Of a stretch of 64,000 nt of DNA, positions 1-33,000 are shown piece after piece. A model generated the notes under the pieces. The model saw only the letters and a list, made by a program, of their open reading frames with translations, had not been told where the DNA came from and did no database searches. The position numbers and the translations under genes are program-made. Within the stretch, counting starts at the first letter, position 1. Each line of letters starts with the position of its first letter. The stretch spans positions 4,153,204 through 4,217,203 of the forward strand of contig OX422184.1 in the NCBI GenBank assembly GCA_949130485.1, written 5' to 3'. This DNA is from Agelas oroides. Taxonomy: Eukaryota > Porifera > Demospongiae > Agelasida > Agelasidae.

Positions 1-3000
1 TACAATCTACCTGAACCGTGTTGGCTGCACTGGTAGTGAGACCAACCTAACTGAGTGCACTCGAGGCCTTACTGTCAGCTGTTTTGGTGGTCACTCGCAG
101 GATGCTGGAGTACGATGTCAAGGTTTGGAGACAACTGTTCACAAATGTTGCAGTTTTTCATGTGTTTCAGAATATTATCTTTCCCAATACAGTAATTTCG
201 AGTGGCAACTGTACCTATGGAGATGTTCGTCTCGTGGGAGGCTCCAATCAGATGGAGGGTAGAGTGGAGGTGTGCATCAATGACCAGTGGGGAACAGTGT
301 GTGATGATGGCTGGAACAGCATTGATGCAACTGTGGTCTGTGAGCAGTTGGGATACGCTTACTCTGGAAGTGAGTGCAGATGCTCTTCTATTTGATGTGA
401 ATACACCGGTATGCTTCCAAATTTGTGTGTTTGATCTGCAGGTGGGACTCCATACAGCAATGCTCATTTTGGTGCTGGTACTGGTCCCATCTTCCTAGAT
501 GATGTCCAATGCAGCTCAAGTGCTAGTCAGCTACTAGAATGCCCTAGCCGGCCAATTTTAGCGCATGACTGTCAGCACTCTGATGATGCTGGTGTAGGGT
601 GTGAAGGTACGTTAGCTACTTCCCCTTCAGCAGCATGTGCACTTGCATATGCACCGACCATGTGGTTTAGCTGCATACTAAATTAATTTGCAATTGCACT
701 GTATATAGTTCCTTGTACAACTGGTCAGCTGCGACTAATGGGAGGTAACATTCCAAATGAAGGCAGAGTGGAGATCTGTATGGACAATGTGTGGGGCACT
801 GTGTGTGATGACTCCTGGAGTAGTACTGATGCTACTGTGGTGTGTCGACAGCTAGGATACTCTATTCAAGGTCAGAATAAGGATGATGGTAAATTTTACA
901 GCACTCTCTGAACTGTTTATACTATAGATTTAGGTCTGTGTTGATGTGCAATGTGATGTAGAATCAGCACTCCATTTACACTCACTATCACATACACTCT
1001 CATTTCAACAGATGCAGTAGCTTTCAGCAGTGCCCATTTTGGTGCTGGCACTGGGGCAATCTACCTGGATGGTGTTAGCTGCACTGGCAGTGAGAACAAC
1101 CTCACTGACTGCTCTCGAAGCTCTACTGTCACCTGTTTTGGTGGTCACTCACAGGATGCTGGAGTACGATGTCAAGGTTTGGAAAAATAGTGTGCAAAGA
1201 TTGAGTGTACTACTAAAGTGTAAAAACAAAAATTTTCTTTCCTACAGTAATTTCTAGTGGAAACTGTACCTATGGAAATGTTCGTCTGGTGGGAGGATCA
1301 AATCACTATGAGGGTAGAGTGGAAGTGTGCATCAATGACCAATGGGGTACAGTGTGTGATGACAGCTGGAGCAGCATTGATGCAACTGTGGTCTGTGAGC
1401 AGCTAGGATATGCATACACTGGAAGTGAGTGCAAGTGCTAGAAATGTCAGTGTGCTGGGGAAAGTTGAATTTGATTCAGAGTACTTATGCAAGCTGATTC
1501 AATATACCTATATTTGTAGGTGGTATTGCATACGCCAATGCTCATTTTGGTTCTGGTACTGGCCCTATCTTCCTGGATGAGGTCCAATGCAGCTCAAGTG
1601 CTAGTCAGCTGCTAGAGTGTTCCAGTAGTCCTATCTTGACCCAAAACTGCCAGCATTCTGATGATGCTGGTGTAGGGTGTGAAGGTACAATTGATAATCC
1701 ATGTACAACAATGTCGTTGTAGAAGTGGCAGAAGTGTTGTGGCAAGTGACTCATATTATATTTTTCTCCCACACTACACAGCTCCTTGCACAAATGGTCA
1801 ATTGCGACTGGTGGGAGGTAACATTCCAAATGAGGGCAGAGTGGAGATCTGTATGGACAATGTGTGGGGCACTGTATGTGATGACTCCTGGAGTAGTACT
1901 GATGCCACTGTGGTGTGTCGACAGCTAGGATACTCTATTCAAGGTCAGAACAAGGATGTGATGTAGAATCAGCCGTGCCTTTACGCTCACTATCACATAT
2001 ACACTTCAACAGATGCAGTAGCTTTCAGCAGTGCCCATTTTGGTGCTGGCACTGGTACAATCTACCTGGATGGTGTTAGCTGCATTGGCAGTGAGAACAA
2101 CCTCACTGACTGCTCTCGAAGCTCTACTGTCACCTGTTTTGGTGGTCACTCACAGGATGCTGGAGTACGATGTCAAGGTTTGGAAAAATAGTGTGCAAAC
2201 ATTGAGTACTAAAGCGTAAAAACATAAATTTTCTTTCCTACAGTAACTTCTAGTGGAAACTGTACCTATGGAAATGTTCGTCTGGTGGGAGGATCCAATC
2301 AGTATGAGGGTAGAGTGGAAGTGTGCATCAATGACCAGTGGGGGACAGTGTGTGATGACAGTTGGAGCAGCATTGATGCAACTGTGGTCTGCAAGCAGCT
2401 GGGATATGCATACACTGGAAGTGAGTGCAAGTACTGAAACTGTCAGAGTACTTATGCAAGCTGATTTGTAATTGTGCTGCATTTGTAGGTGGTATTGCAT
2501 ACAACAACGCTCGGTTTGGTGCTGGTACTGGCCCTATCTTTCTGGATGATGTCCAGTGTAGCTCAACCTCTAGCCAGCTACTAGAGTGTTCCAGTAGGCC
2601 AATCTTAACCCACAACTGCCAACATTCTGATGATGCTGGTGTAGGGTGTGAAGGTAAGTTGACACAACAGTGTTGATGTAGAAGTGGCAGTAGTGTTGTA
2701 TAGGTAGTTAAAATTTTCTCCCACACTACACAGCTCCTTGCACAAATGGTCAATTGCGACTGGTGGGAGGTAACATTCCAAATGAGGGCAGAGTGGAGAT
2801 CTGTATGGACAATGTGTGGGGCACTGCATGTGATGACTCCTGGAGTATTACTGATGCCACTGTGGTGTGTCGACAGCTAGGATACTCCACTCAAGGTCAG
2901 ATCAGGGATCCTGGTAAATGTATAAAGTGTAACATAATCTCTGAAGTGTTGTATCATATGCTCTAGCTCAAGTTAGGTCTGTGTTGATGTAAAATGTGAT

Positions 3001-33000: not shown

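Follow-up and report, generated by a model that had tools for sequence, protein, structure and literature searches.

The DNA analysed here, a window of 64,000 nucleotides at G000:C2:4153204-4217203 in the 259 Mb, 141-contig genome of the sponge Agelas oroides, carries the downstream part of a giant SRCR gene; positions are counted along the window, and negative coordinates lie upstream of it. Judged from its sequence, this gene is real and larger than first described. The full model comprises 125 coding exons, spliced by script between -15923 and 33000, which join into 7337 codons with no internal stop. The predicted protein has 7337 residues and, unglycosylated, a mass of about 767 kDa; it is made up, in this order, of a signal peptide, 59 SRCR domains, a Thr/Pro stalk, a conserved module, a single transmembrane (TM) helix and a short tail (Table 1).

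An earlier note, made by eye from the window, had described at least 45 SRCR domains in one frame, encoded by 97 exons and about 5769 codons and ending in stalk, TM helix and tail. The present count bears this out: the window holds 45 complete domains (15-59) and the second half of domain 14, and it is touched by 97 exons, 91 of them SRCR half-exons and six tail exons, which together contribute 17,398 coding nucleotides, or a slightly higher 5799 codons, with stalk, module, TM helix and tail encoded at 29147-33000. The note also read the array as a single gene, cut short by nothing but the window edge, and proposed to extend the sequence upstream in search of the signal peptide and to look for premature stops, of which the spliced frame has none. 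Upstream of the edge, 14 further domains begin (13 complete and one straddling it), and an ATG at -15923 (G000:C2:4137280), 15.9 kb outside the window, opens the signal-peptide exon; its product, MRGTLLLTAVTLILQVPEAY, is a signal peptide by hydropathy.

Splice junctions were placed by a script that took the best pair of GT (or GC) and AG preserving the frame and favoured no phase. Phase was thus left free, yet every junction on the way from the signal-peptide exon to the last SRCR exon (118 of 118) is in phase 1. The same junctions are GT-AG throughout except for one GC-AG at 28288, where the first automatic choice, at 28300, had a donor score of 0.7 and was dropped once GC donors were allowed. 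Acceptor scores are weak at two sites in the model, -9069 and 13412. The six tail exons were first spotted by eye, and a script then fixed them. One array intron contains the dinucleotide TG repeated 56 times (16432-16543), which is a possible site of length polymorphism.

Table 1. Features of the giant SRCR gene within the window
Feature	Position	Strand	Remarks
Second half-exon of SRCR domain 14	1..122 (exon -42..122)	+	preceded, outside the window, by the signal peptide, domains 1-13 and the first half of 14
SRCR domains 15-59 (45 complete)	193..29077	+	two exons each (162-204 and 162-165 nt), phase 1 introns
Six type-a domains in a row (53-58)	25092..28019	+	tandem amplification, unit ~0.5 kb
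GC-AG intron (AAG|GCAAGT) within last SRCR domain	28288..28915	+	same non-canonical donor in upstream paralog at -32550
Stalk exon	29147..30541	+	45-nt repeat unit
Three module exons	30644-30780, 31331-31437, 31550-31679	+	with start of next exon, encode module of ~140 aa
Exon with module end and transmembrane helix	31769..31950	+	
Last coding exon, 63-residue cytoplasmic tail	32805..33000	+	stop at 32998-33000

The SRCR domains

Two half-domain exon HMMs (A and B), started from window sequence and refined by iteration on the same region, were run over 264 kb. While 51 of the 59 domains rest on these HMMs built from the region itself, eight were tested with Pfam: in each of four two-domain pieces (domains 1-2, 15-16, 35-36 and 58-59), the SRCR model (PF00530) matched two stretches, each piece scoring 178-189 bits where the cut-off is 26.1, and the related model SRCR_2 exceeded its own cut-off in all four pieces as well. 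Of the 45 Pfam hits that the earlier note had expected in the window, those for the six window domains tested are thereby borne out, with the rest identified by the region's own HMMs. The nearest solved structures by sequence are those of CD163 (the best match), PIT54, CD5L, LOXL2, CD6, neurotrypsin and DMBT1.

Once spliced, the array consists of 59 back-to-back domains of 108-123 residues. Eight cysteines, including the six core cysteines, are kept in all 59; the extra pair comprises one in the N-terminal linker and one after GRVE, and the seventh cysteine sits at either of two nearby alignment columns (in 26 and 33 domains). The total is eight cysteines in 57 domains and nine in two. In domains 54 and 55 (25570-26284), the chosen acceptor adds 11 residues and a ninth cysteine, and another splice choice may be the real one. 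The cysteines that mark group B (before GRVEV and after QLG) are both missing from domains 15-16 when these are aligned with CD163, and no group B column appears among the columns with at least ten cysteines in the alignment of all 59 domains. Sponge SRCR domains have been assigned to a group C with seven cysteines, namely the six core cysteines and an extra C1 (PMC10855680); the domains described here have eight.

The domains fall into two types, a (31 domains) and b (28 domains), which mostly alternate, with six type-a domains in a row near the end. This alternation and the terminal run suggest a two-domain duplication unit, followed by later amplification of a single domain. For same-type pairs with Ks between 0.05 and 1 (710 of 843), the medians are Ka 0.10, Ks 0.56 and Ka/Ks 0.19, and Ka is below Ks in 710 of 710, while the 295 different-type pairs whose Ks is below 2 show a median Ka of 0.37 and Ks of 1.65; as the pairs are non-independent and possibly blurred by crossing-over, these values are a description and not a test. 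A pseudogene array was considered and ruled out by the zero stops in 7337 codons, the cysteines kept in every domain and the Ka/Ks of 0.19.

One gene or several

The earlier note had further claimed that neither a signal peptide nor a membrane segment interrupts the array, and both approaches used here agree. Specifically, hydropathy in 19-residue windows reaches the threshold of 1.4 in only three stretches of the whole protein, at residues 4-23 (the signal peptide), 7161-7179 (weak, 1.42) and 7242-7282 (the TM helix), and its maximum within the SRCR array is 1.34. Furthermore, 264 kb were searched with a profile of the signal-peptide exon, at E up to 10, and with four tail-exon profiles (two for the module, one for the TM exon and one for the tail exon), at E up to 1. 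Each profile matched strongly just once in each of four genes, and two of the four tail-exon profiles matched a relic at 37 kb. Inside the array, nothing scored better than E 0.42 (the TM profile, twice), and the best match of the signal-peptide profile had an E of 2.6. The array is therefore predicted to belong to a single gene, and the idea that several genes had been fused by eye was rejected. A related alternative, in which promoters or polyadenylation sites inside the array divide it among at least two genes and the single frame is a by-product of tandem duplication, would find some room in the introns, since AATAAA occurs in 8 of the 23 introns of at least 300 bases and up to five times in the intron at 9145-10432 (a raw count). 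It is nevertheless very unlikely, because the profiles that detect all four genes reach no better than E 0.42 inside the array and each neighbouring gene retains both of its ends.

Tandem units are prone to mis-assembly, which raises the question whether the array length has been inflated. Exact repeats within the reported gene reach at most 418 bp, and miscounting by the assembly is hence unlikely. Internal duplicated blocks of at least 900 bases at 90% identity or more number 16 pairs, a lower bound set by the filter, of which the highest reaches 96.8%; the five longest self-similar blocks span 2.4-2.9 kb and are 90-97% identical. Ordinary long reads should be capable of placing such repeats, and inflation by assembly error is accordingly given a very low probability. 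The upstream paralog, by contrast, has exact repeats of up to 1585 bp, and the assembly of its array is less safe than that of the reported gene.

A different concern is that the gene is single while the 59-domain form is rare or never made, as in-frame skipping of SRCR exons could yield shorter proteins. All array introns are in phase 1, so that any even set of half-exons could be skipped with the frame kept, and alternative splicing is described to alter the number of SRCR domains in DMBT1 (PMC7043408). Conservation across the whole array, with no stop and no cysteine lost in any domain, speaks against this possibility, which we regard as unlikely, although far less so than several genes or a faulty assembly. 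Taken together, these data make it probable that the locus holds one intact gene encoding a predicted single-pass membrane receptor, in which an array of 59 SRCR domains would serve multivalent, Ca2+-dependent capture.

Membrane-proximal region and neighbouring genes

The stalk comprises 485 residues, the start of the next exon included, of which 37% are Thr and 27% Pro. It is followed by the module of about 140 residues, which is 73-95% identical to its counterparts in three paralogs. None of the four paralogous modules (listed by the first member and a tally) had a Pfam match at E 10, and a PDB search with the module gave nothing better than E 0.79. A SEA domain was entertained, as the module is SEA-like by eye only; Pfam and PDB gave no support, and the module is therefore left unnamed. 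From the end of the stalk, beyond its repetitive part, to the C terminus, no Pfam match exceeded the cut-off, and CUB, ZP and sushi domains were absent. Hydropathy peaks at 3.82 in the TM helix (residues 7242-7282), after which the cytoplasmic tail of 63 residues carries Tyr residues (KKYTMD and NEYVMG).

The gene does not stand alone. In the 264 kb searched with the HMMs, four arrays on the same strand show strict alternation of A and B exons, at -72336..-30924, -15764..29076, 40553..52428 and 74562..110857, the second being that of the reported gene. Five adjoining genes have 47, 59, 14, 22 and 5 SRCR domains, of which the fourth and fifth are less firm; 59 is thus the largest count among these five measured genes, with further SRCR clusters (on C5, C14, C16 and others) lying outside the count. 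The upstream sister gene (-72507 to -23819) has 47 SRCR domains and no stop in its spliced SRCR part. The sister gene at 39910-54793 has a signal-peptide exon, 14 SRCR domains, a Thr-rich repeat stalk, and module, TM and tail exons, and its spliced SRCR part is likewise free of stops. Two further sister genes, at 74220-113500 (22 SRCR domains) and at about 133674-144038 (5), are modelled less firmly: the model of the former is rough, with one phase-0 junction and two weak sites, and the five domains of the latter are unspliced HMM hits that include a partial one, and an extra B fragment lies next to them. The signal-peptide exon is similar in the reported gene and three neighbours, and the tail is similar in the four sister genes measured.

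Between the reported gene and the 14-domain sister, at 34038-37874, lies the decayed relic of a similar gene, in which the SRCR half-exons are broken and one module exon is left, together with one tail exon that contains a stop. Rfam finds three tRNA genes on the minus strand at 35583-36308, two of which ARAGORN calls tRNA-Glu; they sit in a 327 bp tandem repeat of 2.3 copies. Across the whole genome, the module-TM peptide matches 13 times, at seven sites, one of them partial, and every site falls in the interval C2:4.12-4.33 Mb, and SRCR domains occur on many other contigs, with at least 183 matches among the 150 of 3183 candidates that were scored. The assembly also includes a mitochondrial contig (G000:C141, 22.4 kb) that reads TGA as Trp and, with genes named by eye, has the order nad6-nad3-cox1-nad1; its cox1 is split by an intron, in which a stop-to-stop frame of 397 codons resembles, again by eye, a LAGLIDADG endonuclease. 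These traits are in keeping with a demosponge. Another contig (G000:C107, 16.8 kb) carries cytochrome oxidase genes that look bacterial, which suggests symbiont or contaminant contigs in the assembly.

Predicted function

DMBT1 is reported to bind its ligands via cations, at sites that include D1019, D1020, D1058, D1059, N1081 and E1086, and either D1019A or D1020A is enough to abolish binding (PMC7043408). When these residues were mapped by motif onto columns of the alignment, the position of D1019 was D in 59 of 59 domains, that of D1020 was D in 54, and that of D1058 was D in 49 and N in 8. The position of D1059 is D, E or N in 44 domains, that of N1081 is N or D in 30, with the misses at both mainly in type b, and that of E1086 is D, E or Q in 51. 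Five cation sites are all D, E, N or Q in just 36 of the 59 domains, so that many domains may not bind Ca2+ in the manner of DMBT1. As the cation-site residues are largely kept, Ca2+-dependent multivalent ligand capture appears, by inference, the likeliest function.

The available data are compatible with a model in which many SRCR domains would bind polyanionic or microbial surface ligands weakly, with Ca2+ forming the bridge as it does in DMBT1. A long stalk bearing up to 59 such domains could then provide high avidity for, and reach towards, repeated surfaces, and the cell might thereby capture microbes, particles or matrix. Unequal crossing-over between units sharing up to 97% identity may lengthen or shorten the arrays, which would be harmless to the frame since every half-domain exon is of phase 1-1. 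Sponges have no adaptive immunity, and the cluster could serve to ask how they recognise microbes and each other. In the literature searched, the link between sponge SRCR genes and microbes or symbionts is by expression response only (PMC6208332, PMC11229196).

Those responses also weigh against the alternative that the receptor serves cell-cell aggregation or self-recognition rather than the capture of microbes, as does the array itself, whose 59 abutting domains of 108-123 residues leave no space for short consensus repeats. Such a role has a precedent in an SRCR/SCR membrane protein of Geodia that is the proposed aggregation receptor (PMC4557014), and arrays varying among individuals would suit self-recognition; it is a possible reading, on about the same footing as exon skipping and well behind capture. 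Somewhat more tentative still is a broader proposal, according to which the cluster is a length-variable recognition system: unequal crossing-over and exon skipping, permitted by frame-neutral half-domain exons, would give individual-specific arrays of interchangeable domains, and hence an inherited valency and reach for the recognition of symbionts or self. The paralogs, alike at their ends (where checked) and ranging from 5 to 59 domains, constitute a natural series for studying the effects of array length, and this series, differing mainly in that length, is both new and testable. It also lends itself to asking whether arrays vary among individuals, as those of DMBT1 do in people.

Comparison with known SRCR proteins

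DMBT1 (SALSA, gp340) likewise combines tandem, near-identical SRCR domains with acidic residues at the cation sites, but it is secreted and its domains are interspersed with linkers, whereas here the domains abut and a TM helix is present. DMBT1 also carries CUB and ZP domains, for which the array has no room and of which the membrane-proximal piece has none. The putative aggregation receptor of Geodia cydonium has about 14 SRCR domains. It resembles the product of the present gene in being a sponge SRCR membrane protein (PMC4557014), and differs in its short consensus repeats, none of which fits the array here or occurs in the membrane-proximal piece. In Amphimedon queenslandica, 158 of 296 SRCR genes are reported to be tandemly arrayed, and the units duplicated there, one or two domains long (PMC10855680), resemble the unit proposed here; in the cluster which that study details, each gene has 2-6 domains, encoded mostly by three exons apiece, against two exons and up to 59 domains in the present cluster.

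Published domain counts place the array at the upper end. Bovine CD163A is described with nine SRCR domains (PMC2906472), DMBT1 alleles could carry 7-20 (PMC4851238), cnidarian SR-I-like sequences 1-23 repeats (PMC5119243) and starfish DMBT1-like proteins 3-24 (PMC9971248), while those of the sea cucumber Holothuria glaberrima have 1-51 and reach about 5981 aa (PMC13228809, a preprint). The sea cucumber proteins are very long like the one predicted here, but have fewer domains, and the present gene has a predicted TM helix. No per-protein count above 51 was found in the main texts of the open-access literature, nor in the parts available of PMC8242945, PMC12723187, PMC3927612, PMC7308585 and PMC5435793; as the searches with number patterns overlooked even the 51, larger published counts may have been missed, and 59 is the highest count found by a margin of eight.

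The earlier note had called a membrane-anchored array of this size exceptional. This is upheld for the size, set against the highest count of 51 in the literature searched, and not for the kind of protein, since SRCR proteins with more than 20 tandem domains are known, as reported for cnidarians and a starfish. The closest overall likeness is to the SR-I class, that is, CD163 and its kin and the cnidarian SR-I-like proteins, which likewise combine an extracellular array of SRCR domains only with a TM helix and a short tail. The present gene departs from that class in its 59 domains, two exons per domain, absent group B cysteines, long Thr/Pro stalk and unnamed module. As such, it is an extreme of a known kind of receptor rather than a new kind and, if transcribed whole, would provide the longest SRCR array in the literature searched, anchored in the membrane besides.
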